From: Polytrichum commune | Taxonomy: Eukaryota > Streptophyta > Polytrichopsida > Polytrichales > Polytrichaceae | Assembly: GCA_950295325.1 (NCBI GenBank) | Contig: OX485806.1 | Span: 3,162,001 to 3,226,000, forward strand | Direction of reading: 5' to 3' | DNA length: 64,000 nt | Shown: positions 1 through 30,844 of the stretch, one piece after another | How the letters are laid out: each line of letters begins with the position of its first letter | Position numbering within the stretch: the stretch's first letter is position 1 | Notes under the pieces: generated by a model | The model's database searches: none | What the model saw: the letters and a program-made list of their open reading frames with translations, nothing else | Told to the model about the DNA's origin: nothing | Position numbers and translations under genes: made by a program

Positions 1-381
1 AAAATTAATATAGGGGCTGAAGATAAGGTTCCTAGAAGGTATGTTTAGTATAATGTTTGCTATAGTCTCCTATGTGTTTTCTTCATAATTTTGTTTGCAA
101 TGATATTATTGTTTGCACCCTTCTTTGTTTTCATGGTTTCCCTTAACACTCGTCAATGCGTTAGGAAGTAGATTAGCTTTTATTACTTAAAAGGAATATA
201 GAGTACAAAAAATTGCAATGACTTGGACAATATAAGTAATGGAAGGGTGCAAATAAATGGGCCATTTTTCAAATTTAAGTAATTATAGGGAGGCTTTAAT
301 TCAACCCTTGAAGGTAATTAGCCCCAAAACAAAAAACCCCGAGCCGCACGTGGTGCACAAAAATGCCTTAGAGTGACCTAC

Positions 382-1317
382 CCGTGCTTGTCTAGTTGAT
401 TCCCTTGGTTTCTTTAAGCCCGTGTTCCCATGGTGATGGGAACGGCGGCCTTCTTTGGCATACGCGGCTTGTCTATAAAATTCCGCTTTCGACACACCGT
501 GAATGGTGTACCATGCCGTACAACATACGTCTGTGCTCTCAAGGGTGATGACCTTCCGACCCGCTCCGTTCACATGTATCGTCCTATGGACATCAAGTTT
601 TTTGGTGGATCTTAGACGGAAATCTCCAAGCCACATTTCCTCGCGGATGGCCCTCAATTTATCCCTTGGGAACAATTGGCAACAACGATGTACACAACAA
701 TCCTTTGTGGCAACTTCTCTAATAGACTCCTCACAGAGCAACCTTTGACGTTTACACTCATTTGCAGACGGAGTAGGACGTGCCAATGTATCGTACTTCC
801 GTAGGCCTTTGCGTGGCCGAATGTTTGCTTTGAGCTCCTCTTGGATTTGGATGTGTCGTCGCTCATGGTCATGCAAGCTAACCCCCTCAATTGTCACATT
901 CCTCAACGGCCACCTTCACAACGAGACCCTATGAGTTGGATTCACTTCGGAGTGTACGAGTGATTCCAATATAACAACTCCAACGTCCTCGGTTCCAAGG
1001 GGGTTTTCATCAATGCAATCTTGTGGATGTGTGTTACGACAAATACCCTCCGCCACAGCAACTCCACTGTCATTAACAAGTACCACATCCAAATTCACCC
1101 ATGAAGCTCATGTAAGCCCCGCACATTCCACAATGGGGCAAAAATGGGCAGATGGCGAAGGACTCCCCAAAGGACCTTCATCTGCACTGTCATCAAAACT
1201 ATCCTCCGCGACAATGTCTAGCTCATCCCCAGACGAAGAATGGGTGTTGCCCATGTCTTCAGAGAAGGAGTCCCCTCTTCCACCAACTCCCTCCATTGCG
1301 CCTACACACATCCACAT
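382..1317 (-). pseudogene. Transposase-like gene, N-terminal part, two in-frame TGA
   Basis: One minus-strand frame runs from ATG at 1317 to beyond 382, broken only by TGA at 1108-1110 and 916-918; all three pieces share the frame. The N-terminus is acidic and Ser-rich (about residues 15-60). The C-terminal part is basic, with the segment WYTIHGVSKAEFYRQ followed by HHGNTGLKKPRESTRQA. That layout (Cys-containing lead, short helix-turn-helix-like stretch, HGN plus basic patch) resembles the N-terminus of a multicopy transposon-type protein family I recall from seed-free plants; this is from memory. A good donor (CGG|gtaggt) at 382/381 suggests the exon ends there. The open frame continues to 301, but its last 27 residues look intronic. 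The rest of the gene would lie left of the window. Both TGAs would become CGA (Arg) by a single T-to-C change. Confidence is good that it was coding, low for the family. Confidence 0.55.
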
Positions 1318-1496
1318 GAAACCTCAACACACATGGACACAATGCAAGGTTCCAAAAGAATCAAATATCGGAGAATGCAAGACATCATGATCAATTGGGA
1401 CACCGAGGATAAAGACATAAGCAACACAACTACAATGTGAACTCCCAATACTGTGCGCAAGTCCAAAAAAAGTTCCACAAAATATTTTGGGAGGGA

Positions 1497-1978
1497 GTTT
1501 GGGTCGGCCGACCTAAACCCTGTGGCACCATGGATTCATCCACAGCTTGCCCATGGGATGGGGTCGGGATTCCGTCGACCGACTCAAACCTTGCACAATG
1601 ATGGGTTCAGGGCCATCAAGAATTCGATCATGCTGTGGGAAAAAATTTGGGTCGACCGACCCAAACCTTCCCATGCTCAACCTACATCCGCCCAAGCTGA
1701 AGTAGGGGTTTGGGTCGACCGACCCAAACCTTCACAGGGTAAATATACCCCCACTGGGCTAAGGGTTTGGGTCGGTCGACCCAAACCCCTTAAGGGTTAG
1801 AGAGGCACCCTGAAACACATGGATAGGGGTTTGGGTCGGTCGACCCAAACCCCTTAAGGGTCAGAGACGCACCCCACTACACTGGGGTAGGGGTTTGGGT
1901 CGGTCGACCCAAACCTGCTAAGGGTCGTACATGCACCCTAACACACTGGGGTAGGGGTTTGGGTCGACCGACCCAAAC
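1497..1978. repeat. Array of 20-bp palindromes, partly with exact 64-bp period
   Basis: Core TTTGGGTCG-NN-CGACCCAAA, usually inside G...C, so arms are 10 bp. Good 22-bp copies start at 1645, 1708, 1765, 1829, 1893 and 1957. The first lacks the outer G. Degenerate copies lie at 1497 and about 1570. The last four are exactly 64 bp apart. Their spacers share words such as AAGGGTCAGAGACGCACCC and ACTGGGGTAGGGG, so the array is a short tandem satellite with the palindrome as its conserved core. Central dinucleotides are AC, AC, GT, GT, GT, AC. The array lies in the leader of the minus-strand gene. Confidence 0.9.
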
Positions 1979-2127
1979 CTCATAAGGGTCAGACTCAAAA
2001 CCCGCCAACACTCGTGGAAAGATGAAGAGCGCCCAAATACACCACAAAATCCGGCGTATAATACGGAGGATATTGCGTGGTGTGTTGAATTTGAGCTCAT
2101 TGCAAAGTTCTTGGTGGGCTTGCACCC

Positions 2128-2141
2128 TAAACCCTAAACCC
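2128..2141. repeat. Short telomere-like run (CCCTAAA)
   Basis: Two tandem CCCTAAA units, the plant telomere heptamer, inside the leader region of the minus-strand gene. It is probably interstitial and small. Confidence 0.5.
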
Positions 2142-2278
2142 AAATTCCATGCTTTGGAAAAAGTGCTCATGAACGGCAGCATGCACAAACCTTTCAGTAC
2201 AGCTCCGACTAAGAGTTCTCTCTACGAATTCAGCAGCGGGAGAGGAGAAAAAAAGGACCGATTTTTGGGGGGTGCGCC

Positions 2279-2290
2279 CCTTTATACTAT
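2279..2290 (-). promoter_or_regulatory. Possible TATA box for the minus-strand transposase-like gene
   Basis: The minus strand reads AGTATAAAGGGGCGCACC here, followed downstream by a CT-rich leader. It lies about 960 bp upstream of the ATG at 1317. The palindrome array (1497-1978) lies between them, so the layout is promoter, leader, palindrome array, start codon. The plus-strand gene at 6810 has the same layout. Confidence 0.35.
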
Positions 2291-2598
2291 CCACCTCCGC
2301 TTCCCAGACTTAGGCATTGGATGTCTTTCCCGCCTTCTTCTATTGCAGAGGTTATTTCGAACATCCTTAAATAATTCCCGGTTTTTTGTTTATTGTAGAA
2401 AATGCGCATCTATCAATGGCCCCCTGATACCCCAGCCGTCATATGACTTAGTCTATGATATTTAATCTATTTTTTTGGTTTTGTGTGGATATGACATATA
2501 CCATTGGGAGGAAGGGTGGCGGCCACATTAATTTTTTCAAGTATCATGACGGTATATTTTAACCAATATGTAGAGCCAAACACAATTCCATTCAATGC

Positions 2599-2742
2599 TT
2601 TCAAGTGTAAACCTATTTAGGTGGGATTTGGGACATTTGGAGGTTGCAATTATGAGAGAGTTTCCAAGCCTTTCGAGTGTAAACCTATTTAGGTGGGGTT
2701 TGGGCCATTTGGAGGCTTCAATTATGAGAGAGTTTCCAAGGC
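2599..2742. repeat. 72-bp tandem duplication
   Basis: Two adjacent units (2599-2670 and 2671-2742) share TTTC(A/G)AGTGTAAACCTATT, GTGG(G/A)(A/G)TTTGGG and ATTATGAGAGAGTTTCCAAG. They differ at only a few positions. No coding sense was found. Confidence 0.85.
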
Positions 2743-2939
2743 TTGAGGCCATTGTCATGGTGAATAAAATTATTTATTTGTCTCCACTAAACCCTACACC
2801 CTAGAACATTGTTCTATTATCTCGCATGCAAGTGTGGCAATGACGAACGTATATGGACGTTGTTAAGGGGATACTAACTACCAATGTCCCTTTTTAGTTC
2901 AATCTTTTAATGTTACTTGAATCCATCCTCAAGTTCACT

Positions 2940-3810
2940 TCAAGTTTACAAATGTGTGTGAGCAAAACATCAAAAATTGGACCCTCAACCCTTATATCAT
3001 CCACAACATGAAATACATATTGACTAAATACAAAACCAATTAGGATATCATGTTTAAACATCCCATATAACATATTCACATGATCAACATTGTATTTACT
3101 ATGGCCTTCCGATTAGACTCTTCTTCATATTATGCAAACAATATTTGTTATATCTTCCTCCATTATCTAATACACGTGCAGAGAACAATGAATAACAACA
3201 TGATTGTTTGAATGGCTTCATTTGATGTTGTGCTTCTCCGATCTACTTTTACATCACAATCCATATATTAAATACATAATAAACCATGGTTTATTAGCGA
3301 CTATGCGATTCCCTAAAGTGAGCAAAACATCCAAAGTTCGACCCTTAACCCCTAATAACATCCACTCTGACAACATTTCATGTTATTTGAATAAACACAA
3401 GAGCAATCAATATATCGCGTTTAAATGTCTCAAATAACAAATTAACATATTAATCAAGATCGTCTTTCCTATAACCTTCCTTTAAGACTCTTCTCACCAG
3501 TAAGACAATGTTATACATTGACAATGTTAATATGTTATAACCATATCTCCTAAACCCTAAACCCTAAACCCTAAACACCAAATGTAGTTGTGGTTCACTG
3601 ATGCCCCCATATACAAACAACATCTATTTTATCTTGCGCCATCATCTAATATACATGGAGGGAACATGTATAACAACATGATTGCTTGAATGGCTCCATT
3701 TGATGTTCTGCTTCTCCGATTTACTCTTATATCACAATCTAATATATATTAAATATATCATGAACCATGGTTTATTGGCCACTTTGCGATTCATCAAAGT
3801 CACAATATCA
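2940..3810. repeat. Diverged tandem duplication, unit about 370-480 bp
   Basis: A block beginning GTGAGCAAAACATC at about 2958 and ending in a segment with AATGGCTTCATTTGATGTT and AAACCATGGTTTATTAGC (about 3320) is repeated from 3319 to about 3800 (AATGGCTCCATTTGATGTT, GAACCATGGTTTATTGGCC). The second unit contains the telomere-like run at 3551. Only short spurious frames are present. Confidence 0.7.
3551..3576. repeat. Interstitial telomere-like repeat (CCCTAAA)n
   Basis: About three and a half consecutive CCCTAAA units, the plant-type telomere repeat, inside AT-rich repeat DNA. It is too short to be a chromosome end. Confidence 0.8.
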
Positions 3811-3989
3811 GGGATGTACTTAAAACTTGAGCATGTCAGCATTTTCAAATAAGGCTCGTGCATTTCAAAACCCTTACAAAATGCAGTTGGGGAATGTATT
3901 CATTTAATAGGCTCCACACTCAAATATTCTAAATTGTTCCACATGTTGGGGGGTGTGGGTAATCTTTTTTATTCATTCAATATCGTGTG

Positions 3990-5390
3990 AGTTGTTGGCA
4001 TCATTGGTAAAGTCTAGATGTCAATGATTACATCGTTAAATATCACGCAATTGTATGGTTTTCCTAACATGCTCGAACAAAAGAGAAACCAATGCCCTCA
4101 ATGTGTTTGGAAAATTTAGGGTATGGTGTCATGTAAGTAAGGGTTAAGTATTCGTTTAGCATAAAGTTTTGTTGTAAGAATGCATTGGCTATATAAATGG
4201 TTAGTTTAGTAGAATAACACATTTTATGTACCACCTTAGTGTACTCCAGAGTTCAAGGTACATACTATTTAAGGGCTTTATGTTGGATACTATATACATA
4301 CTATTTAAGGGCTTTATGTTGGATGAACGAGAGGTGCACTTGTGCACTTCAGAATTATGTCTTGCTATAACTTTTTACTGACATTATCGTTTTTTACGAA
4401 CTAAGTCATATCATAATTTTTCGTGTGCATACTACCTACTTATGTTATTTGGATGAAAAAATACTTTCTATTAAATGTTACAGAAATGTGTAACTCCGAA
4501 TGTTATGCCACACTAATTAGAGAAAATAGTCTAGTGGATTAGGAAATGATCACAAGCACAAGGGATTGAAAACTTGAGAAACTTGTACAAAAGCTTTGGT
4601 GGGGTGCGAGGTGGGGGTGGGGGGCATTTTATACATCATAGTAGAGTTATACATGAAGTCTTGGATCAAACTTAGGTTTGAGAATATAACCATAAAGTCA
4701 TCCAATTATTTCAAGGGCTTAGAACCAATTTTAAAGCAGGACCACAACAACATAGTCTAATGTTTGGGTCGTCCTACCTAAACCATCCCAAATTAACGAA
4801 TATAGTGATTAATACAAATGCAGCCTAAAAAATAAGTGACTTAGCATATAAAATTTTGAGAGTGTAGGACAAAGAGCCTATGCACAATTTAAGAACATAA
4901 GATATCAACCTAGTATGTGATAAAAAACATGTAGGAAATTTTACCTACAAATTTTTTAAAAGAGAGGATTTTAGCCATTCATCCTTCTTCAAATTGGGAA
5001 ATTAGTTGGCCTAAGTACATATCTTTAGGCTATATCTTGCAGGAAGAGTAGAGGTTGAATCAGAAGATGGTGAGGACTTTCACCCTTAAACTCATTTGAA
5101 TTTTAGCAACCTTTCATAACTTATAATCAACGCTTTAAAAAACAGTTGGTTAATCCTTGGCCTTCAAACGTGGTGAAAGGCATAGTTGTTGGCATCATTG
5201 GGAAAGTCTAAATGTCAATGATTACATCGTTATATGTCACGAAATTGTATTATTTTTCTAACATGCTCAAACAAAAGAGAAACCAACGACTTCAACTTGT
5301 TTGGAAAGTTTAGTGTATGGTGTCATGTAAGTAGGGGTTAAGTATAAGCTTTGGCATAAAGTTTTGTTGCAAGAATGCACTGGCACCGCA
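3990..5390. repeat. Direct repeats of about 200 bp, 1.2 kb apart
   Basis: The segments at about 3992-4192 and 5185-5385 match along their length (GTTGTTGGCATCATTGG, TCAATGATTACATCGTTA, AAAAGAGAAACCAA, GGTGTCATGTAAGTA, GCATAAAGTTTTGTTG). They diverge beyond both ends. Between them lie a 34-bp tandem duplicate (about 4250-4325), a degenerate copy of the palindrome (4762-4783) and otherwise featureless AT-rich DNA. They could be decayed terminal repeats of an element, but no clean termini or target duplication were found. Confidence 0.65.
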
Positions 5391-5499
5391 CCTTAGTATA
5401 TTTCATGTAGCACCTTAGTTCATTGAAATAAGTTATACCCGCTAAGGGTTTAGAGTTAGGCTTTAGGATTTAGGGTTCCCCGAAATCCTAATTACGTGG

Positions 5500-6283
5500 G
5501 TACCCTAATCCTGTGGGCCGCCTATTGGCGGGGGTGGGGCCAATTCCCGAGGCGATCAAAACCCCAAACGTCACCTTTTCGAATTCCTTCTCTCTCTCTC
5601 CGCGCCAAGCATTCCCTCCGCGCCTCGCTTGGAAGCGCCGCCTCTCCTGAAGCGCCGCTTTCGCGAAGCGCCGCGGCGATTCAGGCGCGGTATTCCCACC
5701 ATTCTGCTTCTTCTTCATTATTTGTCTTTTCGCTCTTGCTCTTGCTCTTGCATAACTCTTATCCAATCTTAGGTTTTAGGAAGAGTCTTGAAAAGCACAG
5801 AAACTTGCGGAGGAAAGGTTTAGTGCGTGAGGGTAGAGGAACTTAGTAGATGAGTTTTCAAGAGTGTTGTTCAAGAGTGTTCAAGAGTGTTGTAGAGTGT
5901 TGAAGAGTGCGGCAAGAAGTTAGGAGAACATCGTGTAGGAGGTTGAGATTGTGCTTGTGAGTATCAGGAGTTCTTGTGTAGTTTGAGAGATTTCAAAGTC
6001 GTTTGAGCGATTCTGTAATTTTGTGATAGATTCAGGAGTTGCTTGAGACATTTAGAAGTCGTTTGAGAGATTCAAAAGTCTTTTGAGAGATCCAGTATTT
6101 GTTTGAGAGATTTCAGAGTTGTTTGTGAGATTTCAGAGTTGTTTGAGAGATTTCAGAGTTGTTTGAGGGATTCCAGAGTTGTTTGAGATTGAATAGTTGT
6201 TTCAGAGATTCCAGAGTTGTTATTGAGGGTTATTGGAAAGAGACATCATCTACTCCAAAGTGTTTGCACAACAAATTTCAAAG
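5500..6283 (+). promoter_or_regulatory. Inferred promoter and 5' leader of the ParB/MTase-like gene
   Basis: GC-rich block with CTATTGGC and GCCAATT (CCAAT-type words in both orientations, 5521-5545), then a CT-rich stretch (5580-5600) and a long G/T-rich leader. The leader contains the tandem array at about 5990-6215. It ends at a plausible donor, TTTCAAAG|gtattgtg (6283/6284). With the acceptor TTGCAG at 6804-6809, directly before ATG 6810, this gives a 5'UTR intron (6284-6809) holding a palindrome array. The short frames across 5488-5846 are probably not genes. Confidence 0.45.
5990..6215. repeat. About 20-bp tandem repeat GTTTGAGAGATT(T)CAGA
   Basis: About ten imperfect units of GTTTGAGAGATTTCAGAGTT, preceded at about 5845-5905 by shorter repeats of CAAGAGTGTTG. 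It lies in the inferred leader. No long open frame crosses it. Confidence 0.8.
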
Positions 6284-6415
6284 GTATTGTGTTATGTTTC
6301 TTAATTCTTAGTGTTGTAGCATACACAACGCATAAGCATTGTTTATGCTACGTGCAAACTTTTAAAATATATTAATAAAAAACACTTTGGGGAGACAACC
6401 CAAACAAAGGCTGAT

Positions 6416-6565
6416 GTTTGGGTCGCTCGACCCAAACAAAGGCTGATGTTTGAAACCCTAAACCCAATCAAAGGCTGATGTTTGGGTCGCTCGACCCAAA
6501 CAAAGGCTGCTGTTTGAAACCCTAAACCCAATCAAAGGCTGATGTTTGGGTCGCTCGACCCAAAC
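6416..6565. repeat. Three palindromes with exact 64-bp period
   Basis: Copies of TTTGGGTCGCTCGACCCAAA start (with the outer G) at 6416, 6480 and 6544, exactly 64 bp apart, each with central dinucleotide CT. The spacer (CAAAGGCTG..GTTTGAAACCCTAAACCC) is unrelated to that of the 1.7-2.0 kb array, yet the period is the same. They lie in the inferred 5'UTR intron. A decayed copy sits at 6762-6783. Confidence 0.9.
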
Positions 6566-6809
6566 ACAGTCTTCTAAACCCTAATCTCATAAAGAAATCC
6601 ATGATGTTAGATACAATATAAAATGCAAGTCCACCCAAAAATAAAAATACAATATCACCATTAAATGATGTTCACATATAACAATACACAAACCACCAAA
6701 ATACATGCGGCAATTTATTACATTTCAATTACATCACGTGACTTCTATTCATTTTGAAGAAGTTTGGGTCGAACGACCGAAACTAACATTGGGGTTTCTT
6801 TCCTTGCAG

Positions 6810-8135
6810 ATGGCCCCAAAGAAACGACTAGGCGAAAGGCGGTTCATGCCTGCGCCGGACATGTTGTGGCAGGAGCACGAAACCCCGCAGGAAGACTCCT
6901 ATTCCCCTAAGGACGGGCTTGTCCTCGCTTGGTCAATTCAAGTAGTCAAAGCCTCAACATACAAAATGATTTTTGTTGTCAAGGTGGGAACCGTGGAGAA
7001 GCACACCTGGGCGACTCTTACGGGATGGGAGGTCGCATTGGTACAGTCTCTTGGAGACTATACCAACGTCATCCTCGAGAACTCGGCTGTCCAGAACGCG
7101 CATATGTTTATGCACCAGTTCTCCGAACCCTTTGACGCTATCTATGCAAAAGAAACATGTGTAGAACCCGACGTCATCAAACCGGAGTCCATATTCATCG
7201 ATAACAGTACATCGAATACCAAGGTCTCAAGCCGGTTCACAAAACTAAAACATGCAATAACCGTGCTGAACAAGGACGTGCAAAGCAAAACCAAATCACA
7301 ACAAGCTGTGAGGCGGAAAGCTCCCACAGAGGAAGGAGCAGGGTCGTCAAGACATCAATCAGTGAGGATGCCGCGACCAGTACCGGCTGACTCGCGGAGG
7401 ACCACTCCATCCCAAACACCTACGAATAGTGAGGCTCCTACACCTTGTGGGAGCCGTCAAACAACTCCATCCAAGAGGGCGAGAGAATCATCTGTGATGA
7501 GTGACAAGCCAGTCTCACCGGAGTTGCGCATGCCGAAGCCCGGCGAAGAGGTGGATGCAGGGGAGCTGCAGAAAATCGTGAACAATTTCACGACGAAATG
7601 CTCCCACTGTTTTTTCATGTGCAGGGATTTCAAGTTCGACGTGAACATCAGCCAGTGCCATCTAGCGCCACCAGAGAAGTGTGTCCGGGCAAAGGAGGAC
7701 GCCTACGTTGACTGGATAATCGCGCAGATCGTTTGCGAGCAGTTTAAAGACGACAAGCAAACGATTGTAGTGATGCCACAGGGTCTCAAGAAAATGCCTA
7801 CACCTGAAATGTGGCCAACAATTCAGAAGGGCAATTTTTGGCTGATAGACGGCCAACACAGCGTGGAGGCATTCAAGAAAATCCAACTCATGAATGAGTG
7901 GGATGATCCCAACAATCAGAAGGAGAAGTTGAAGGTGTGGAAGGCACTGGTGGTGTGGTCTGACGATGAGACCCGACTGAGCGACATCTCCCGTTACTTC
8001 AACATGGGGAATAAGAAAAGGGCCTACCAAGCTTCCTGGATAAGGAATATCATGGCCTCGCGGGAGGTGTGGGAGTTCTATGGTAGGCCTCCCAAGGAGA
8101 GGGAGAATGCGAAGGACAAGAATCCCAAGTGGGAG
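6810..8135 (+). pseudogene. ParB/DGQHR-like plus methyltransferase-like gene, coding exon 1
   Basis: Begins with ATG immediately after a strong acceptor and runs 442 codons, phase 0, to a strong donor (GAG|GTGAGT). Residues 1-190 are of unknown type. Residues about 195-270 are a low-complexity Ser/Pro/Arg linker. Residues about 280-430 carry FWLIDGQHSVEA (DGQHS at about 347-351), then WKALVVW and a C-terminal SRYFNMGNKKRAYQASWIRN. In ParB/sulfiredoxin-fold and DGQHR proteins, DGxHR-A is the nucleotide-binding box; here the Arg is Ser. Fusions of a ParB-like domain with a DNA methyltransferase are known in phages and prokaryotes, which matches the next exon. The fold assignment is my inference from motifs; no search was run. 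No in-frame stop lies in this exon. Confidence 0.6.
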
Positions 8136-8351
8136 GTGAGTATTGTTTGGGTCGACCGACCCAAACTCCTCGTGCAGCCTTGTTTATTTAGTTTGGGTCA
8201 ATCGACCCAAACAACTGTTGCAGTCTTGTGGTTTTTTTAGTTTGGGTTGATCGACCCAAACTCTTGTTGTAGATGTTGGTCATGATATGGTTTGGAAATT
8301 ACATGTATTTATCTAACACGCATTCAAATGTTCTGTTTTGTTCACGTGCAG
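8136..8351 (+). other. Intron with three palindromes
   Basis: Donor GAG|GTGAGT and acceptor CACGTGCAG|GAT join two phase-0 exons. Palindromes start at 8145, 8191 and 8240 (spacing 46 and 49 bp). The last two have central AT and one arm mismatch each. They make up about a third of the intron. Confidence 0.75.
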
Positions 8352-9683
8352 GATTTCAAATACCAAATGATCAACAAATTCTCCTCCATTGATAATTCGA
8401 GCCACAAGCAGAAGAAATACAGCGACCTCAAGGGGGAGATTTACTTGATTACAGCATCGGACTCAGTTTGGAGGAAGTGGAAAATCGTGTTTGAAAAACA
8501 CGAAACGGGGGATTTGATCGACCCCGACACTGGCGCTTTCTTCAGCCTGGCCTCGCGCTTCAAGCAGATGAAGCCTCTCGTGAGAGAGTTCTTTAGAACT
8601 CTTCAAGGGCTGTCAGAGACGGAGGTGGAGAAGGCGGCATCGCACATCCTGCACGTGGCACCCACGGCCAAGAGGTGCTGGGTGCACCCGAAGATTGTCT
8701 TCGTAAAGCCCAAATCCTTCGTTCATTCATGCTACACCATGAAGGAATGGACGGAGAACAGGAAAAATAAGACGACTATCGTGCAGGAGCTGCATAAATT
8801 GGTGCCAGAGAGGAATATTGTCGTGGACGGCGAGGTTCATGAGGCTAACTGGAGAGCATTCAAAGATGAATATAAGTTCACCAGTGCGTCCATGACGGCT
8901 CTAATAAGGGAAGCGGGGGACGACTTCTTGCGGGCCAAGATGGTAAAGGGTGGGAAGAACCGGGCGCTTCCGGATCACACAGTGCGTGCGTTCTCGAACT
9001 TCATCAAGGAGAAGAAGATTGTCTAGTTTGAAGGGGACGCTTACTTCAACCTTGTCACCTTCGAGCCTTTGAAAATTCAGGGCTGGCCAGGTCAAGACGC
9101 CAGAATGGCGATAAGAACGAAAGCAAGGGACCGCTTTCCTTTTGGAATGATTGATTTTAGAAACATTCCTGGAAGCTCATTTGAGGGCACGATGAGCACC
9201 CTCTTCTACGACCCCTTCTTAACTAAGTTCGTCGATTATGCAAGCCCTAAGTTCAGGGAGGCAGATATATGGCTTTGGATAGTCGAGGATAGGAGGGCGG
9301 AGCAGGTGTACGAGCTTGTCCGGAAACTGCAACCGGAGTATGCAGTGTCCAAGTCTCACTACATCGCCGCACCGGCGGAGGGGGCTTACACGACGTTGAA
9401 GGACAAGAAGACTAAGTTCGTCAACGTCTTGTGTTTATACTTCGTGTACAAAGTGGAGTTGCTGAAGGTGCCGAACCACCCTATATCCCGCATGGACAAA
9501 CTCTTCCAAGTTCCAGAAGGGTTGGGTGCCAACAAGTGCCTCTACGACGAGGCTAAATACGCGAACTATCCTGCAGATGAGCTGCGGATGGAATTTTACA
9601 TGAGAATGATGAGGACGCTGACGAGGAGAGGGGACTGCATCTTCAACGTCTTCAGAGGCTCAAAACTTCTCTATGCTGCTATG
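8352..9683 (+). pseudogene. ParB/MTase-like gene, coding exon 2, one in-frame TAG
   Basis: 444 codons, phase 0 at both ends, ending in a strong donor (GCTATG|GTAAGTGA). TAG at 9024-9026 is the only break. Frame and sequence character continue past it (…KKIV-stop-FEGDAYFNLV…). The part after the stop resembles a beta-class (IV to I order) N6-adenine/N4-cytosine DNA methyltransferase. FYDPFL at about residue 729 (gene numbering) sits where DPPY is expected. RRGDCIFNVFRGSKLLYAA at about 868-886 sits where the GD.vlDpF.GSGTT..AA motif is expected, and exon 3 continues with IYSYIEDGDLPFYRVQKSL like the motif that binds the cofactor ribose. DPPY changed to DPFL and a weakened motif I suggest loss of catalysis or a divergent use. 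The family call is inference. Confidence 0.5.
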
Positions 9684-9843
9684 GTAAGTGACTTTCTCTA
9701 GCTCGTAAGCAGTTTGGGTCGATCGACCCAAACTAGGCTCTTTGGAGGTTTGGGTCGATCGACCCAAACTACACATTGTACTTAGTCTTGTTTATGTGAC
9801 TGCCTCGACAAATTCTAATTTCCCTATAGCTTGGATTGTGTAG
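9684..9843 (+). other. Intron with two palindromes
   Basis: Donor ATG|GTAAGTGA at 9684; acceptor TTGTGTAG at 9843. It holds two perfect palindromes starting at 9712 and 9748 (36 bp apart), both with central AT. It is phase 0 on both sides. Confidence 0.7.
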
Positions 9844-11327
9844 ATGTCGGGGCTGAATATATACTCCTACATAGAGGATGGCGATCTGCCATTTTACAGG
9901 GTGCAGAAATCGCTGGCGAAGAAGATGGACATCCTCGATTGGATCCCGGGTAGCTACGTCGACGAGGTTGTTCAAGGGGGCGAAAACCCTCTTGATAGGG
10001 TGAGGCGCATCAACCTGGAGGAAATGGCCATGAGGGCCACGACCCAAGTACCCGAACCTCTGGTCGGGTTGCATCCGGGCAATCCGTCCCGCACAGAAGG
10101 TGGCGAGGTTGAGGAGGAGGAGGAAGAAGAGGAACACGATGAGGCGGAGAAGGAAGGCGACATCGAGGAAGGGGCAACGGGCTTCACGCAAGAATCCGAA
10201 GCCCCTCAACGGAAGTAGGCGATGCGGGCGGCAACCCCGCAGAGTAAGCTCGTGCCCGTCCTGACGGTGGACGATGCACGGGACATGTACTCCAGGGACG
10301 CGACCGCCACGTTCAGGGAGAGGAGGAAGATGAAGGGGAAGAAGCTGTATGGCGACTACTCCGTGGAGGAGACCATTGCCATAAGCAGCGAGGACGACGA
10401 TGATATTGAGCTCGCCAAACGGCTCAGATCGGATCCCCCTCCCCGACAGCGTTCGCTGGCATGGTTAGGGTGAAACCCGAAGTCCTCACGGTGGATGAGG
10501 CAAACGAGAAGATGCGGAGGGACGAGGAGCAACGCGTCCGTCTGCAGAAGGCTGCCGCTGAAGAACCCTCGGTGCGGAACGAGGTAGCAGAGCTGAGGGC
10601 TCTCATGTTGGAGCAGGAGTGACAGAGGGCGATGGCCCAACCTCCGTCCCACGCCGAATTGATATCACAAGTGATACAAGGAATGTGGGCGCAAGGTTTG
10701 GTGGTGGCTCCCTCCAGCTCCTTCCCGCACTTGCCCCCCGGCTTCCCTGCGCAGAGCATCCCTCAGCAGCCTATGCCGCAATCGTCTTTCAGCTTCCAGC
10801 ACTTGATGCGGCCCCACCAAGTTCCGTACGCGCCGGTCCAGCAAGTGGATGACCCCAACATCTGGCGCGTCTCTGGAGCCTCCTCCCCTTTGGGCCCTCC
10901 ACCACTTCGGCCCCCCATAGTCATGGCGCCCCCTCACCAAGCGGACGACCCCAGGATGTTTGGGTCGACCGACCCAAACCCACCATCCACTGTAGTGTCC
11001 GAAGGGCCCTCTCCAGATGCAAGACAGTTTGGGTCGCCCGACCCAAACCCCGTTGCCCTTGACCAACATGGGTGTCAACTAGACACGGCCATGCTAGATG
11101 TTGAAGGCCTGCAAGGGCCTGGTGATACCTCTACTCCTAACCAAATCGATGAACGCATGCATGATGCACATGCGGAGATTGGTTTAGGACAAGGGCCTGA
11201 TGCCGATCGTTTGCAGGAGAAGGTTCCTGACGTCGTCGGAGAAGGCGGTGGCGAGAGAGGCGGGGCAGCGGGGACGGTGGAGGCTTCCACATCGTCGAGA
11301 CATGACCAGGGCGAGGTAATACACTGA
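9844..11327 (+). pseudogene. ParB/MTase-like gene, exon 3: acidic and Pro-rich tail, two stops and a frameshift
   Basis: Opens MSGLNIYSYIEDGDLPFYRV, plausibly the last conserved MTase segment, then a Glu-rich stretch (10102-10150). TAG at 10216-10218 interrupts the frame, which continues (AMRAATPQSKL…) to about 10465. There a one-base shift moves the sense to the next frame (VRVKPEVLTVDEANEKM…). TGA at 10620-10622 interrupts that frame (…LMLEQE-stop-QRAMAQPP…). The remainder is Pro/Ser/Gln-rich. Two palindromes (10958, 11027; 69 bp apart, so in phase) are translated as FGSTDPNP and FGSPDPNP. The frame ends at TGA 11325-11327, unless the donor GAG|gtaata at 11314/11315 is used. Confidence 0.55.
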
Positions 11328-11764
11328 GCCCTCCCTAGTTTGGGTCGACCGACCCAAACTTCCTGGGTCATTGTCTTGTTGGCGTGGTTGTGTCCCCCTT
11401 GCTAGGAGGAAATGCACACCCCCTGCCCCCCATGCTCTACACTTGCTCCCCCTCCCCCCAACGTGCCCCCCCGCGATCCCCTTCGTCTCACCTGCACTCG
11501 ACTACGCTCGACCTTGGCGGCGCGCAACTAATTTTGTAGATGTAGAATTAGGATAGTGTGAATGCCCTCGTTCACCGCGGTCCCCCCCCCCCCCATCAAA
11601 TTGTACATAGAGATTTGTAAAAATAAAATTATTATTTTTGGCGCCCATATGTTTGCATCCGTGTCCCAATGTATGTTGTTTGCCTTGTATGTTTTTGTTG
11701 CCACCAATGGTCCAATTGTTCTTGTGTTTGCACAAAATTTCCGTTCTGCTTGAGATGGACATAG
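11328..11764 (+). other. Spacer between the ParB/MTase-like and FCP1-like genes
   Basis: A palindrome (11338-11359, central AC), a C-rich stretch (11400-11480), a run of C (11582-11594) and an AT-rich part. Possibly the 3' end of the first gene and the promoter or leader of the second. No convincing frame of its own. Confidence 0.5.
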
Positions 11765-12619
11765 CATAACATAGTCCTCGCCGCCTTCTCTCGCTCGTCG
11801 CCGCAAGGTTCGGAGCATAGTGTCGCGGCTCCCCACCGATCCTCTCCGAGGAGTGTGGAGGACAGCGCGGTGGTCCCCCCGATTTTGCCCTCGCCACCTT
11901 CGCCTCCCAAGACCCGGTTCCTCGTGCTAGACCTCAACGGGGTCCTTGTTCAGTGCGTGCATTGTCTGAGGGTCCCAACGGTCCCTTTCTGCAAGCCCGA
12001 GGATGCCAACTACGATGGTCCCCCCGCGTACATCAAAAGCAAGCTAGTGTACCTCCGCCCGTGGCTTCGGCGCTTCCTACAGGTCGCCCTATCCAAATGG
12101 TGAGTGATCATTTGGAGCTCCATAAAGTCCGAGAATACCCAGGCCGTCGTGGAGTTCATCTTCAAGGGACTCCAACCCCCGTGCTTGGTCCTAGGACAGG
12201 ATTCTTGTAAAACATTATACACCCCCGAGGGCAGGGTTGTAAAGAAGCCCAACAACCCCGCCGTAAACCAATTTCTTAAGGTCTTGAAGCCAGTCGTATG
12301 GGACCAGCGTCCGACCATGGTCGGCTGTCCCTACGACGTTCGCCCCACCCGTGACAACACATTGATGGTGGACGACAGCGCTTCCAAAAACATTTTGAAC
12401 CCGACCTCGAACTTCATAGTTTGCCCCACGTGGACGGTCGAGAAGGTCCGAGACCGCTTTTTGTTAGACCTACTTAAGTACATTCAAACGCTCGTGGGGA
12501 GCGGACTACCCGTGCCCCGGTTCCTTAGTTGTAATCCGATAGGCGAAAGATACATGGATCTGAAGGACTATATGTACAGAGAGTTGTACGCTCACGCGAA
12601 ATATAATAAACTCATTTGA
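11765..12619 (+). pseudogene. FCP1/NLI-interacting-factor-type HAD phosphatase-like domain, in-frame TGA
   Basis: One frame from after TAG 11762-11764 to TGA 12617-12619, broken by TGA at 12101-12103. The HAD/FCP1 signatures are in order. RFLVLDLNGVLV is motif I; the second Asp is Asn, as in plant DLNG-type members. VYLRPWLRRFL follows. VIIWSS is motif II and comes one codon after the TGA. NTLMVDDSASKNILNP is motif III. So the stop cuts the core of the domain between the cap-proximal helix and motif II. No ATG opens the frame, so an upstream exon is likely. CTD-phosphatase-like enzymes of this family dephosphorylate Ser/Thr. With DLNG and a nonsense codon, activity here is doubtful. Confidence 0.7.
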
Positions 12620-12730
12620 GATACTACATGGTGTGCCATTGTGTGTGATATATTATGCCTCAATTGTATATCAATTTTCACATGCTCCCCCCTCCCCTTG
12701 GGTTTTGTTTTGTTTCCTTTTTTGCGCCAG

Positions 12731-13084
12731 CGTTTGGAGCCCTCGATTGAGATCGTCAGCGAATCAAACTTGGGGAGCTTCTTCTACGAGACCGTCTACG
12801 ATGCCGCGTCCACCATCGACTACTCCAAGGAGCCTATCGACGCCGGCGTCATCGATAGCCCCCCACCCAAGCAAATCTTCCGGCCATCTCCGTCCCCGTC
12901 GCCGCTCAAGGGCATAAATCGCAAATGCGTCCGGACGTCCCCCTCTTGGCCCGGCAGCAGTATTACACCTCAACGGCGGCTACGGATGGACGCTCGGCCC
13001 ACGAAGAGTGGCACCCTTCCTATCCCTTTGCGGGACGCCTTGCCCCTCCTCGCCAACTCCGACGGGAACGCCCCCGGTGACAAG
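12731..13084 (+). pseudogene. FCP1-like gene, downstream exon
   Basis: Begins after a polypyrimidine tract and acceptor (TTTTTTGCGCCAG|CGT) and runs phase 0 (RLEPSIEIVSESNLGSFFYE…) to donor GACAAG|gtgacc. Pro/Ser/Arg-rich, no recognised domain. The upstream donor is unresolved: the previous frame ends in TGA at 12617, and no phase-0 GT upstream of that stop looked convincing. Confidence 0.5.
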
Positions 13085-13222
13085 GTGACCCCCCCCCCCC
13101 CCTCCAAAAAAACATGGTTAACCACGCATTACAATCATCCCGCACTTAAAAAATGAACGTGTGACACGTTTGGGTCTTCCTCCCTTAACTAACACGTGTG
13201 TTCTTGCATTCACGCGTTGCAG

Positions 13223-13552
13223 GTTGCTCCCGCCCGTAAACCTATGCGGGATGATCCGTCCGTCGAGTTGGAGCGTTTCTACTCCATGACCAGAAATGCA
13301 AGACAATCCACTTCATCGTATTCGAATTCTTCGTCGTATAATTCGGGCGGCCGACGGAATCCAAAATGTGTTATTGTTGGCTGTCACCCCAAGAATGGCT
13401 ATAGTCGCGGGGTGGAGATTTTCAGGAATGTTGAAGCAATGCGAGCAAAAGAAGCCGCAGCAAAAGAAAAAGAGGCAAAATAAAAAGAGGCAAAAGAAAA
13501 AAAAGCAAAAGAAAATGAAGCAAAAGAAAAAGAGGTAGTCTCCGAGGCTAGA
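13223..13552 (+). pseudogene. FCP1-like gene, last exon with Lys/Glu repeats
   Basis: Starts at acceptor GCGTTGCAG|GTT in phase with the previous exon (intron 13085-13222). It encodes a Ser-rich segment, then NPKCVIVGCHPKNGYSRGVE, then Ala/Lys/Glu repeats. TAA at 13481-13483 falls inside the repeat, which resumes in the same frame (KEAKEKKAKENE…) up to TAG at about 13550. By repeat register the stop replaces GAA, so this one is not a C-to-T change. Confidence 0.45.
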
Positions 13553-13719
13553 TAGGCCATAGTAGGCGTAGGGTTGTAGGCCATAGTAGGCGTAGGGTTG
13601 TGGGCCATAGGCAAGAACATTTTGGGTCGCACTATCCAATGGATGTGTGGTGTTAGCATGCTATGCATTTTACATGCCACACTTTGTATGTTTTTTTTGC
13701 AATAATATAAGTGTCACAT

Positions 13720-13975
13720 GATTTCCCCTTCCATATGGTCTAAGGTTTGGATTGCCCTACCTAAACCATCACAAATATGAGTTTGGAATATTTTGTATGT
13801 TATATTATATTGGTTCACATATTTCCCCTTCAATATGATCTATGGTTTGGATTGCCCTACCTAAACCATATTCATACAAGTTTTTGTGCGATAATATGAA
13901 TGTTTTAAGATTTCCCCTTCAACTTGGCCTAAGGTTTGGATTGCCCACCCTAAACAATCCCAAATATGAGTTATT
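13720..13975. repeat. Three roughly 100-bp repeats with decayed palindromes
   Basis: TTTCCCCTTC followed by a shared segment and GGTTTGGATTGCCCTACCTAAACC (or close) occurs at about 13722, 13826 and 13910. The cores are mutated versions of the TTTGGGTCG/CGACCCAAA palindrome. They mark the right edge of the palindrome-rich region. Confidence 0.75.
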
Positions 13976-14625
13976 AATGGGGTTCTTGTTCTAAACACCC
14001 GCTTCAAAGTGTTCGCATCTTACAACTTTCTCCAATATGTGTTCCATTTATCCTTGTTCTTATTTTTGTGAATGTCTCAAAATGCCCAAAAAGTCTCAAT
14101 TTAACGAATATAGTGTTCAATGAGAAGATGACACCTTGATAATACGACTTTTTTTGTATTTCCCAAAAATGTCATACTAAAGAGGGAGAACAATAGTGCA
14201 AAGATTTCTCTCGGGGCGATCACACCCCCTTACGTCTCATAACCACATGAGATAATAGTTTGCTACCCTATCTTATATACCATATATAATTTTAAAAATT
14301 ATGATTATTTTTCTACATATGCATAACCATTGATATTATCTTTTGTATATATTTTTTGAAATTCTTAGGTATCTTTTTTTAGTAAAATTTTAAGTTCAAT
14401 TTTGCGTCATTCTAGTTCGAGCATAATGTGAAAATATTACTCCTTAATGTGGATAAATGCTAAACTACGTAAAGGTGAAATGCACAAATTTAGTGTCTTA
14501 CACAAAGTGCCATCAAGGTTTGTCCTTCAAACTTTTATAATAGGTGCTAAAAAGTGAAAGTAACTACCTAAATTGAAAAAAAAAAAGGTTAAGAGATATT
14601 CAAAGGTAGTGCTACCCTTGCTCTC

Positions 14626-23909: not shown

Positions 23910-25118
23910 ATGAGGACTAAAGCAACTCCGAACAAAGGAGCCTTAGGTCATGGACATAAACGCTCAGAATGGGTATAATGGTTATACCCTATATTACTTG
24001 ATGTATTTGAACATTATAAAAAATTTGAAGTCAAATTTTCAGCACGCCTTCTCATCGAGTTAGCTATGACATTTTTATTGGATTCCACCTCACCTTATAC
24101 ATGTCTTTCTCGCGATCCAAAAGACAATGTTTTTCTCATTGAAAAGTTGACCAACAGTTGGCTTCAGCAATTAATGTTTGTGCATAACATTATTCTTTTA
24201 TCACAATCAGGGTGTTTAACTTGCAGTCCACAAAAAAAACGTGAAATTGAAATACACGCCACATTTCATTTAGGTGTGTTACATAGGGGTTTTTTAAATG
24301 GTGCATTCGATGAAAATCTAATCGAAAACATCGATGAAACTCATTTCGTTGTGAACATGAATAATGAGAGAACCTTAGGATTTATGGATGATATTACAGT
24401 GTCCTATACTGAAGTGGTGTCAGGTGGAGACTCCATGACAATGGTCATTAGAATCTCTGGAGGACGACGATCAATGATCTAAGTTCCAATGTTTATTTTT
24501 ACAAATTCAAATGGCAACTATAATATTCGTGATTTAGATGATAATATTTCAGGGGTATGCTATAGGACCGGGCCCAAACGCTGGATGGACCAAATTTTCT
24601 TTGCAGAATATTTTTCTGAATCTAGGGCGTTCCAATCTGATGTTCATGGTCGTTCGAAGGTGGTTAGGATGGATATTTGCACAGGTCATAGTATGACTCC
24701 GCAATTTAGCGTTGTCTTAGAAGCAAAACAATTTATCTTAAAGTATTTGTCACCATGTTCTACACATTTGTATCAACCGACCGATATTTTTATTATTTCT
24801 AAAATGAAAGATGCATGGACTAGAAGATGGGAGGCCAAGAAATTTGATCTCATTGAAGCAAACACTTGGCAAAACACACCATGGACGGACGGTCACTGGT
24901 CCAAGAAACTCATCAATCTGGGTAAGAGATTTTTGTTGCAATTGGCTGCAGATTCGGTTGAAGATATCAATCGGGAGGTAGATTGTGATAATTTATCATA
25001 TGCTAGAAAAACTATGATTGGATCAGGCATGTCTTTAGCTATTGATGGTATTTGGAGTGTCCATCAACTTTTTCCACATCTTCAAGACATAATAGAAAAA
25101 TATCGGCAAATTTTTTAA
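23910..25118 (+). pseudogene. DDE_1-type (pogo-related) transposase, two in-frame TAA
   Basis: A single frame from ATG 23910 to TAA 25116-25118, interrupted by TAA at 23976-23978 and 24480-24482. Sense resumes in frame after each stop. All three catalytic acidic positions appear kept: NIDETHF (about 24330), MDICTGH (about 24670) and YQPTDIFIISKMKDAW (about 24770-24820). The pattern matches DDE superfamily endonucleases (DDE_1) I recall from oomycetes and seed-free plants; the likeness is from memory. A short frame at 23626-23913 may be a frameshifted N-terminal piece. No terminal inverted repeats were located. Confidence 0.8.
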
Positions 25119-28736: not shown

Positions 28737-30844
28737 CTAGCCCCAGAAGCGAGGAATTCCGGCCCGGATGGTCTTTACGATTGTTGCATTGATCCCAAAT
28801 GCCTTCTCAAGAACTGCGTCCGGAATCCCATGCTCAAACACCTGGTTCGCCGTCACCAAAAACCCGGGGTTCTGAGAGTTGAGAGTATTGAACGTGACGG
28901 CGGTCTCGTTGCCAACATTGATCTGGAAATGCTGGGTCGCTCTCGGGAAGAGCATGAGATCACCCGCGTGCAATGTGGAGGCATACAACACGTTGTCGTC
29001 TCCGATGAAGCCCGTGTAGATCGATCCCTTCACCACAAACAGCGTCTCAGTTGCGAGCGGGTGGGTGTGGGGTGGGACGACTTCCCCGATGTTGAAGTCA
29101 AGTCGAACGTGTGAGACGCCCTGCGTGTTGAGCCCTGGGAATTCGAGCACCGTTGCGAATGTTGGGGATGCATTTGTGCCTGAGATCGCAGGATTGTATG
29201 CTGGCAGATTCAACATGGACAACAGAAAATTTATAGCACATGTTAGAGCTCAATGTCTGCTTGGTTGCTGGAACGTTGTAAATTCTGCAAGGCGTTGAGT
29301 GAGATGTAGGTGTACTTGTGATACGTAGGCTGTGCAATGGAATTCGTCTGCTAGAATTGGTAACTTCTTGACACACGTTTTGTGGATTGAGGTAGCTCGA
29401 GCTAGCCGGAGCTCACTTCCTGAAGTAACAAGGGCGTGACCCCATTCAAGAGCAGAAGCGGAACGCTAATGTCACCAAGAAGCAGCTCTTGGAGACCTAT
29501 GTCATCAAGAATCTATGGCGCAGCTTTTTGATATTCATGATGCCTAGGCTGCTCAAGTTTTGGCTGAAATCAATGATGAACTGACACATGCATCGTGGTT
29601 TAAGGATTGGTTTCCGTGAAGATGACGAAGCAACCAACCAACCACATTTTATATGTCTACCAGAATGCGGGGGGCTGTGATCATGGGCCACTAGACTTCC
29701 ATGTGCCCACTCAACACATAAGATGAAATTGGTTGTTTGGCACATACAAACTCTACCCCACCAAATTTCACTTATATTTGTCTTTATTCCCACCAGATTC
29801 TGGTGGGAATACATGGAAACCCACCCTAAGCTCGCTAAAGTGAGCTGGAATTAAATCATGAAGTATGGGCACAATTCTCATTCAAGAGTGAAAGCAGAAC
29901 GCTACTGTCCTCAAGAACCTACCTATGGCACAACTTTCTCTTGAAGATTGACATTGAGAATAGAAATTTCACCCCCTCTATTTTTCAAGCAATCCGAAAT
30001 CACAAGAGAAAGCTTAAGGTACAGCTATGGACTGGACTGCACATAGAAATAATTGACCGCCTACTTGAAGAAGGTGGCACCAAGGTGACATCATCAACGT
30101 TCTCTTTCCACTTCTCAATGCAAACATGCCATAAGGTACATGGGTGTTACTTTGTCACACTTCTTTATCGGACACCTTGTATTTGACTGGTGTGTGAGAT
30201 GAAGGTCAGAAAAACGAACGCCATAAAGGAACTTGTTTTCAAAAAAGTGGACTTATGCCTTCCAATTTCAATAACTCAATATTGAACACAAGTGGGAGGA
30301 CGTCGTATGTATTCAGTTCAGAAATCAACAAACATGCACTTCTGATTACGATAACCAAGTCAGGGGAGGTTCGGATCTTTGTTAATGCTTCATGCTAATG
30401 CAACACGAGTTTTGTTGTGCAAATCTAATTCGTAGAAACTGTTGAAGAACATGAAAAATGTACCAAATAACACCCACATACCTCTAATGTAAACTACAGA
30501 ACCTCTAAACAAGAGACTATTATAACACAAGCATTCTGATTGCGTGATTTTGTAGACATCGAAATGTATGCAAGTGGCTGACAAATCACAGAGGCTGCTC
30601 TAACATATTCTAGATAGATAGTACCTGGGCCTCGCAGGCCAGTGAACAGAAAGTCCGCCGCCGTCACAGTCGACCGCGCTTTGCAAGGATAGCCATTCAT
30701 GTGCGTTGCATTCTTCGACAAATCAGCCACACAAAAATCTTGCAGGGGGTCAGGATCCGCAGCATGTACCACCACATTCATCGCGAAGCACACGAAAGCC
30801 AAGAACATCAACACCACCCAAGGATGGCCAAGTGTCTGATCCAT
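28737..30844 (-). CDS. GLP: Germin-like protein (two exons)
   Basis: Secreted cupin, expected in the apoplast or cell wall as a Mn-binding oligomer; enzyme activity (superoxide dismutase or oxalate oxidase) cannot be told from sequence. Exon 1 is 30844-30625 and exon 2 is 29179-28737. Joined they give 663 nt (220 aa plus stop), typical for the family. Splice sites are CCAG|gtacta and ctcag|GCACAA, phase 1. A signal peptide of about 28 residues ends at VVVHA. Mature-region Cys residues sit in DFCVADL and NGYPCKA. Germin box 1 reads VVPPHTHPLATETLFVVKG (His, His and Glu ligands). Box 2 reads GDLMLFPRATQHFQIN (fourth ligand His); it has PRAxxH where PxGxxH is usual. It ends in RAGIPRFWG. The 1445-bp intron carries part of dispersed repeat R3. 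No frameshift or stop was seen. Confidence 0.93.
30290..30480 (-). repeat. Dispersed repeat R3, copy 1, inside the GLP intron
   Basis: The reverse complement matches 62665-62905 and 40420-40590 (GTGTTATTTGG, TTCATGTTCT(T/C)CAAC, CACAACAAAACT, TGCATTAGC, AAGTGCATGTTTGTTGATTTC). A partial relative lies at about 34330-34440. Confidence 0.75.

Follow-up and report, generated by a model that had tools for sequence, protein, structure and literature searches.

What is a stretch of DNA in which a single 20-bp palindrome recurs over some ten kilobases, and what would read such a palindrome? The question is raised by a window of 64,000 nucleotides from Polytrichum commune (the whole stretch analysed, contig OX485806.1, here C4:3162001-3226000). 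A preliminary description, made from the letters of the window, had suggested that positions 1497-13975 are one large and perhaps undescribed mobile element or several nested relatives, and had left its unit boundaries unfound. We searched the genome (408 Mb in 64 contigs, seven of 42-78 Mb) and find that the region is a single DNA transposon with terminal inverted repeats (TIRs), about 17 kb long and present in hundreds of copies. As for the palindromes, we lean towards the view that they are family-specific sites of a homodimer encoded by the element, the likeliest candidate being its ParB-like/methylase-like fusion protein, and that they would serve self-regulation or anti-silencing. The family of the window element is designated E; the copies compared were E1-E4, the window copy, its sister S1 and two non-autonomous copies, N1 and N2.

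The element boundaries are now placed at window coordinates -2871 and 14117, the left 2.9 kb lying outside the window. The features that define them are as follows; here and below a strand is given where one is assigned.

-2871 to 14117 (C4:3159129-3176117): whole element, 16,989 bp
1-14117: part of the element within the window, with the right end; left TIR located, target-site duplication CAAT on both sides
13746-13954: three copies of a conserved right-end motif, TTTGGATTGCCCTACCTAAA, exact at 13746 and 13846 and with two mismatches at 13935
14093-14117: right TIR, its left counterpart outside the window at -2871
14118-14121: 4-bp target-site duplication CAAT, the second copy directly left of -2871

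The junction at 14117 is identical in 15 of the 20 right-end pieces compared; in the remaining five the end is truncated, displaced or unmatched. An inverted copy of the right end was located at -2871 in the flanking piece L001. The inverted ends are of the type AACACTATATTCGTTAA, with termini AACACTA...TAGTGTT and the 4-bp duplication outside them. This duplication is present in 22 of the 22 E elements for which both ends were read. These are the window copy and 21 of the 36 adjacent plus/minus end pairs listed on C1 (exact matches); the 21 came from 23 pairs less than 20 kb apart, the elements read excluding the 13 wider pairs. Spacing among the 36 pairs was 13-20 kb in 21, 20-45 kb in 12, less than 6 kb in two and 146 kb in one. 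Genome-wide, the end pattern with at most one mismatch occurs at 1,178 sites (585 forward and 593 reverse), compared with none for a reversed control, and family E may total up to about 10 Mb, provided that most ends pair up. Four right-end pieces are 100% identical across about 500 bp, which suggests recent jumping. The motif TTTGGATTGCCCTACCTAAA has two exact copies in E1-E4, the window copy and N2 and one in N1; the third copy carries two mismatches, but three in N1.

Some further repeats were observed inside elements. At 4792-4809 of the window, directly behind a palindrome copy at 4763, lies an imperfect copy of the right end (ATTAACGAATATAGTGAT), and a 200-bp direct repeat occupies 3990-4189 and 5184-5384; together these may be the remains of a nested relative. 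In another element (L005/L006, C3:10433001-10441844) a direct repeat of at least 1,429 bp, 100% identical, recurs about 6 kb apart. One copy ends flush at a palindrome array and the first copy begins at the edge of the piece; this is probably a young long terminal repeat retrotransposon within an element.

Three genes are carried by the element, and in the window they are laid out as follows.

L001:7655-9836, left of the window, minus strand: remainder of transposase exon 1, with the DUF7869 exon (tblastn with the E1 exon; PF25273)
-177 to 386 (window part 1-386): 564-bp insertion breaking the transposase; the site is empty in S1
385-1323, minus strand: first part of transposase exon 1 (tblastn of the E1 exon)
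6810-8135, plus strand: ParB-like gene, exon 1, 442 amino acids, containing DGQHS; GT-AG borders common to E1 and E3
8136-8351, plus strand: ParB-like gene, intron 1, with palindromes at 8146 (exact) and at 8192 and 8241 (one mismatch each)
8352-9683, plus strand: ParB-like gene, exon 2, start of the methylase-like part; in-frame TAG at 9024 in the window copy
9684-9843, plus strand: ParB-like gene, intron 2, carrying two exact copies of the palindrome (9713 and 9749)
9844-11315, plus strand: exon 3 and an acidic/proline-rich part, broken here, with coding palindromes at 10959 and 11028; the end at 11315 is placed from a GT and from E1
11780-12616, plus strand: FCP1/SCP-like (NIF) phosphatase exon, PF03031, aligned to the E1 copy; TGA at 12101

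The transposase gene, at the left end of the element, consists of two minus-strand exons and lies mostly outside the window. Its exon 2 matches DUF7869 (PF25273, E-value 1.5e-41), and the minus-strand frame at 301-915 that had been called transposase-like proves to be part of its exon 1. The motifs IHDxMD, VQxDN and VGHTHxD recur in most alignment rows that span these positions, L070 and L075 differing at the middle D; from these motifs and its place in the element, the DUF7869 protein is predicted to be a transposase with a DDE triad. A Pfam scan gave no family besides DUF7869 above the cut-off, and a remote relation to CMC is possible. The insertion that breaks the gene has 15-bp inverted ends (CACGGGTAGGTCACT) and an 8-bp duplication (CTTGTCTA) within the transposase exon, and the length of this duplication suggests that it is hAT-like.

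In the ParB-like gene, DGQH is invariant in all five aligned rows from E and from a second family, G, described below; the DGQH protein of the proposed ParB/DGQHR-methyltransferase-like fusion is present. The second half of the protein contains NVFGG(S/T)K, then AA and a GL..S pattern, which we take to resemble methylase motif I. We nevertheless use the name 'ParB/methyltransferase' as a description of short motifs rather than as an established membership, because no profile library recognises the protein. Exon 1 of the window copy is 93% identical in protein sequence to that of E1 and 83% to that of E3. The ratio of nonsynonymous to synonymous substitution (dN/dS) in exon 1 is 0.10-0.18 among E1, E4 and the window copy, and it stays below 0.25 for every gene part wherever E1, E3, E4 and the window copy were compared. 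Between E1 (L028/L029) and E3 (L032/L033) the same exon is saturated at synonymous sites (proportion of synonymous differences, pS, 0.748), compared with a pS of 0.239 for transposase exon 2 and 0.438 for the phosphatase; element halves could have been exchanged between lineages, or synonymous sites could be under selection.

The phosphatase is a NIF-domain protein, in agreement with its earlier designation as FCP1-like. The match to PF03031 has an E-value of 2e-05 for one window frame and 1.6e-13 on the unbroken E1 copy, and the domain lies above the gathering score (51.1 bits in E1 against 21.8; 49.7 bits in G). The FCP1/SCP catalytic motif is usually DxDxT. Both E1 and G read DLNGVL, keeping the first Asp and having Asn in place of the second, and the predicted activity is uncertain.

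The transposase, the ParB-like gene and the phosphatase co-occur genome-wide. Matches were scored for 85 of 1,856 candidates for the transposase exon, 150 of 946 for ParB-like exon 1 and 138 of 1,289 for the phosphatase. A same-strand ParB-like match lies 3-9 kb upstream of at least 103 of the 138 phosphatase matches (at least 113 within 2-25 kb), and a divergent one lies 5-15 kb from at least 55 of the 85 transposase matches (at least 59 within 2-25 kb). Random placement gave at most four phosphatase and three transposase linkages (2-25 kb window, 200 trials). The window copy itself is broken by the transposase insertion, by the stop at 9024 and later breaks in the ParB-like gene and by the phosphatase stop at 12101; copies in which single genes are unbroken exist elsewhere in the genome. 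With both ends, the target duplications, hundreds of ends and copies and the linked genes in hand, the proposal of one large mobile element is borne out. A giant-virus or endogenous-virus reading was dropped because ends, target duplications and a DUF7869 gene were found.

The palindrome, TTTGGGTCGNNCGACCCAAA, is 20 bp long and consists of two inverted 9-bp half-sites 2 bp apart (9-2-9). Besides the copies within the ParB-like gene given above, it is found in the window at the following places.

1498-1977: palindrome array ahead of the transposase gene, with exact copies at 1646, 1709, 1766, 1830, 1894 and 1958 and a one-mismatch copy at 1498
4763-4782: one copy with two mismatches
6417-6782: copies in the ParB-like leader, exact at 6417, 6481 and 6545, one mismatch at 6763
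11339-11358: one copy just past the inferred exon end

Between 1498 and 11358 there are 15 exact copies and 19 with at most one mismatch (the one-mismatch copies being those at 1498, 6763, 8192 and 8241); further matches have three mismatches (13621) or four (1569, 13746, 13846 and 52196). As a control, three 64-kb sequences from a first-order Markov model contained no match with up to three mismatches and one with four. The palindrome-studded region is therefore real, and its reported absence from the remaining 50 kb holds, the match at 52196 being the only one beyond 13865. Among the copies reported as decayed, those at 1498, 4763 and 6763 have one or two mismatches; those at 13.7-13.9 kb seem instead to be the separate conserved motif TTTGGATTGCCCTACCTAAA.

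In the genome the exact palindrome occurs at 9,731 sites, compared with none for the control. Allowing any spacer of 0-6 bp raises the count only to 9,735, so the 2-bp spacer is essentially fixed. Among the first 100 exact sites listed, 81 fall in three E elements (38, 18 and 25), one of which shows only its left end in the end listing. Nine others precede a methylase-like exon at C1:482239 by 4-7 kb and five precede its relative at C1:2163288 by 3.6-9 kb, both exons belonging to a different gene type, Z, considered below; the remaining five were assigned to neither group. An even spread over the genome, with the three genes single-copy and apart, which the preliminary description had named as evidence against its proposal, is thus not seen. 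Some copies of the palindrome lie outside family E, beside the Z gene. In full elements the palindromes are found in the leaders of the transposase and ParB-like genes, in the first two introns of the latter, in an exon and in the intron that follows it; they often stand in tandem units of about 32-78 bp, and element copies differ in the number of these units.

Several measures suggest that the palindromes are under constraint. The half-sites are 0.93-0.98 conserved, compared with 0.43-0.54 for the flanks, a contrast that is partly by construction since the sites were chosen at up to four mismatches. The decay of CpG dinucleotides between E1 and E4 amounts to 0/78 in palindromes, 50/122 in other noncoding DNA and 56/525 in coding DNA (Fisher test, 1.7e-13 against noncoding and 5e-4 against coding), fractions that omit other changes (one in palindromes, 50 noncoding and 41 coding). 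The corresponding values for palindromes and noncoding DNA are 2/58 and 52/128 between E1 and the window copy and 4/48 and 25/76 between E4 and the window copy; the direction is alike between E4 and S1, where the sites are few (1/18 and 1/3). N1 (3.6 kb) and N2 (4.8 kb) contain no palindrome within two mismatches, despite intact ends and target duplications. These copies moved without palindromes, which therefore seem dispensable in cis for movement.

The G element examined (C7, 17,327 bp) has the outer 16 bp of E, a target duplication ACAA and an identical gene order. Identity to E is 65-66% for the transposase exons, 42% for the phosphatase and 33%, 37% and 26% for the ParB-like exons. G carries a different palindrome, TTACGGACGNNCGTCCGTAA, again of 9-2-9 geometry, in 10 exact copies and 19 within two mismatches. 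Even at four mismatches, the E palindrome has no match in G, and the G palindrome has none in E1-E4 or the window copy. The two palindromes nevertheless sit at matching gene positions: in E1, E3 and G, respectively, there are 16, 12 and 9 in the transposase leader and 6, 10 and 6 in the ParB-like leader, the first intron-1 copy begins at base 11, 10 and 20 of the intron, and in all three elements copies also stand in intron 2, with another two or three towards the end of the exon after it. Among these three, a palindrome in the transposase intron is found in G only. The G palindrome occurs at 1,310 sites in the genome (control, none). There are six clusters among the 50 sites listed, all of which are on C1, and a G-type ParB-like gene lies within or next to five of the clusters. 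A G subfamily that is 78% identical in exon 1 retains the G palindrome, just as the E palindrome is common to E1 and E3 despite the divergence of their exon-1 proteins.

Taken together, the strict spacing and the conserved inverted repeat over promoters and introns argue for a dimeric protein that binds double-stranded DNA. That the site sequence has switched at matching positions, while the ends and the transposase are more alike, argues for a reader that is encoded by the element and differs between families. The ParB-like/methylase-like protein has diverged further between E and G than the products of the other two genes and is the best candidate. We infer this binder from sequence, and a sister family that has a transposase as its sole gene found and a palindrome of its own urges caution. 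In the mechanism that we favour, the palindromes would act as double-stranded target sites of the homodimer, and protein bound to the many sites of its own element would keep the promoters and gene bodies of the family open against silencing, or tune their expression, while transposition itself would depend on the conserved ends. Family-specific half-sites would confine this help to the family's own copies, so that protein and sites would change together. More speculatively, since motif IV is degenerate, the methylase-like domain could serve to clamp DNA instead of acting enzymatically, and the phosphatase could target the transcription machinery.

A more far-reaching version of this reading is possible, and we offer it tentatively: there may be a class of eukaryotic transposons in which each family tags its DNA with a 20-bp 9-2-9 palindrome as a private address, and in which a ParB-like/methylase-like dimer encoded by the element reads that address and spreads along the element or clamps it. 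The family codes would switch wholesale in evolution while ends and transposase stay alike. Such a system would be the eukaryotic equivalent of ParB-parS or of self-marking by methylases. The family half-sites would then be TTTGGGTCG, TTACGGACG and CCACGGGTG, and perhaps also AGGCCTCGG and GTGTCTCGG. Further palindromes of the same geometry were observed: AGGCCTCGGNNCCGAGGCCT, also 20 bp long, forms tandem arrays at L081 (C7:5152001-5155000) and C1:2252876-2257762 and has 2,181 genomic sites (control, none), and GTGTCTCGGTACCGAGACAC is carried by tandem repeats of about 138 bp at L087 (C1:468608-471946).

Several observations weigh against the ParB-like protein as reader, or against the constraint on which that reading draws. 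Besides the effect of site selection noted above, the choice of palindromes by similarity also favours conservation in the CpG comparison. In the closest pair, the window copy and S1, CpG decay is alike in palindromes (2/28) and noncoding DNA (6/97), and divergence is 7.2% in palindromes but 1.9% in noncoding DNA, perhaps through out-of-register alignment of tandem units. The usual methylase motif IV is DPPY, whereas the methylase-like part reads DPFL, EPFL or DSFL. Searches of the E protein against Pfam, NCBIfam and the Protein Data Bank gave nothing significant, and no match to a DNA methylase (N6_N4_Mtase) profile was significant. The ParB assignment is weak, the best ParB-type matches having E-values of 0.061 (PHROG) and 0.15 (DUF6551), and searches of phages, IMG/VR and prokaryote genomes revealed no relatives at their level of sensitivity. 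AlphaFold models of the methylase-like exon and of a DUF7869 transposase had mean predicted local distance difference test scores of 35 and 46, respectively, too poor for a fold search. The ParB-like gene, moreover, accounts for only about half of the sites (18/34 in E1, 20/32 in E3 and 12/23 in G).

Two further groups of loci bear on the same point. A third DUF7869 family, F, with a 692-residue frame (L068/L069, L079 and L080), has its own 9-2-9 palindrome, CCACGGGTGNNCACCCGTGG, in the transposase leader and intron; two F relatives carry CCACGGGCGATCGCCCGTGG, altered symmetrically in both halves. The right end of F differs from that of E, reading ATGGGGATATTAAC inward, and a left end was sought and not found. 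No ParB-like gene was detected by tblastn with the E1 and G proteins in 20 kb around one F copy, and the transposase might therefore be the reader there. Z is a different repeated gene, with a ParB-like DGNHR exon, which stands beside E-type palindromes at C1:475-478 kb.

L085:7511-7996 and L086:1806-2718: Z gene, DGNHR exon and adenine-DNA-methylase-like exons, with E-type palindromes upstream

The later exon of Z matches DNA methylases (PHROG, E-value 3.8e-06; PF01555, 0.021, below the cut-off), and 150 of 1,469 candidates for its methylase-like exon were scored as matches genome-wide. In the 8 kb around the palindromes at C1:475-478 kb there is no similarity to E except the palindromes themselves and no match to the E1 transposase. 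Comparison of the Z and E proteins with hhalign was not significant for either the DGNHR/DGQHS region (E-value 0.024) or the motif I region (0.86). That a ParB-like exon and a significant methylase match again accompany E-type sites speaks for a reader of this kind; but since Z shows no significant likeness to the E protein, site type does not map in any simple way to a single protein clade.

The transposase must accordingly be weighed as an alternative reader. If the DUF7869 protein bound the palindromes, in autoregulation or in assembly on internal sites, the ParB-like gene would be unrelated cargo. We think this unlikely, but from the sequence comparisons the transposase remains a serious rival: it is the sole protein found in E, G and F alike, F has its palindrome with no ParB-like gene found, G too has a palindrome in the transposase intron, and the transposase leader holds about half of the sites (16/34 in E1, 12/32 in E3 and 9/23 in G). 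The E-type sites beside Z enter this account on both sides, since they loosen the tie to the E ParB-like protein, yet no E1 transposase match was found in the 8 kb tested there. It is also at odds with the other half of the sites, which lie around the ParB-like gene, and with N1 and N2, which moved without palindromes. Sites of a host transcription factor or chromatin protein, exploited by the elements, would fit the leaders and introns in which the palindromes sit, where host factors act. This reading is nonetheless improbable, because a host factor would not be expected to vary by transposon family, whereas E and G, alike in ends and gene order, show no cross-occurrence at four mismatches; in addition, 81 of the first 100 sites listed are in E elements and 14 are upstream of Z-type genes.

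We give very little credence to the two remaining readings. The palindromes could fold as RNA, and hairpins in leaders and introns might govern splicing or transcript stability, as the position of the first intron-1 copy near the start of the intron would allow; but the loop of a hairpin could vary in length, whereas the spacer is 2 bp in 9,731 of the 9,735 sites, and changed pairs are one-sided rather than compensated in 25/25 cases in E1, 14/14 in E3 and 18/22 in G. The fixed spacer and the one-sided changes indicate that the sequence itself is conserved, beyond mere pairing. Neutral leftovers of tandem-repeat expansion are equally hard to credit. The tandem units, whose number differs between copies, and the excess divergence of palindromes between the window copy and S1 are what such an origin would give, but conserved half-sites in unconserved flanks, the sparing of CpGs in the E1-window, E4-window and E1-E4 comparisons and the different palindrome at matching positions in G are not. 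In our view, a family-specific site read by the element's own ParB-like/methylase-like homodimer is the interpretation most consistent with these data.

Other features of the window lie beyond the element. Two adjoining frames are found at 23979-25118, the second matching a DDE_1 transposase (PF03184, E-value 2.5e-07), and a germin-like cupin gene (PF00190) lies at 28737-29249. An 83%-identical inverted copy of the cupin DNA is located about 38 kb away, in L001 near window coordinate -9084. Runs of the CCCTAAA type were also noted.

A transposon has to escape silencing by its host and yet spare the genome serious damage, and there are few systems in which the means can be seen. In this genome several families together have thousands of palindromes with exact spacing, and the code has switched at matching positions between families; such family-specific codes make transposon self-recognition experimentally testable. 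The uncharacterised DUF7869 family gains a likely role, that of a transposase leaving 4-bp target duplications. No paper mentioning DUF7869 was found in the open-licence literature, nor was any description there recognised as this element, which is weak evidence that it is, as first suggested, undescribed.

ParB-like/methylase-like proteins are known mainly from bacteria and phages, and here they appear as cargo of a eukaryotic transposon. In bacterial ParB-parS systems palindromic sites of the dimer type extend over kilobases and the protein has a DGQH motif, and phage ParB-methylase proteins have a methylase second half. The element shares the DGQH motif, the palindromic sites over kilobases and the methylase-like second half, but its protein is similar at the level of motifs only. 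The CACTA-like ends also led us to consider membership of CMC/Chapaev. Chapaev elements have a DDE transposase and target duplications of 3-4 bp, compared with 4 bp here, and Chapaev3 has A/T beside its duplication, where AA precedes CACTA in E (PMC4079192). Membership was rejected on termini and transposase: CMC/Chapaev termini are 5'-CAC...GTG-3' and not AACACTA...TAGTGTT, the E transposase matches only DUF7869 in Pfam, and the right end of F reads as given above. Fungal DNA transposons with TET/JBP dioxygenases likewise carry a DNA-modifying enzyme, which is discussed as a counter to silencing (PMC12730594). They differ in enzyme, host kingdom and transposase, and the portion of that account available to us mentions no dispersed palindromes.

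A further close likeness is to the VANDAL transposons of Arabidopsis and their VANC proteins. VANDALs are DNA transposons with extra genes, and VANC proteins bind short motifs repeated in VANDAL introns and upstream regions and cause loss of methylation (PMC5735166, PMC10398659). As in E, the short motif is dense, family-specific and placed in introns and upstream noncoding DNA (PMC5735166, PMC10398659), and its number varies between copies through tandem duplication (PMC5735166). The two systems differ in transposase, VANDAL being of the MuDR type (PMC12730594) and E having DUF7869 and 4-bp target duplications, and the Pfam matches of the element proteins including neither a MuDR nor a DUF1985 domain. 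They also differ in the site, which for VANC21 is the 9-base motif YAGTATTAY in a single orientation (PMC5735166) and here is a 20-bp palindrome, and in the protein, which here is an unrelated ParB-like/methylase-like one whose anti-silencing role is suggested by analogy. Even so, VANDAL and VANC may be regarded as a tested precedent for the self-recognition that we propose.

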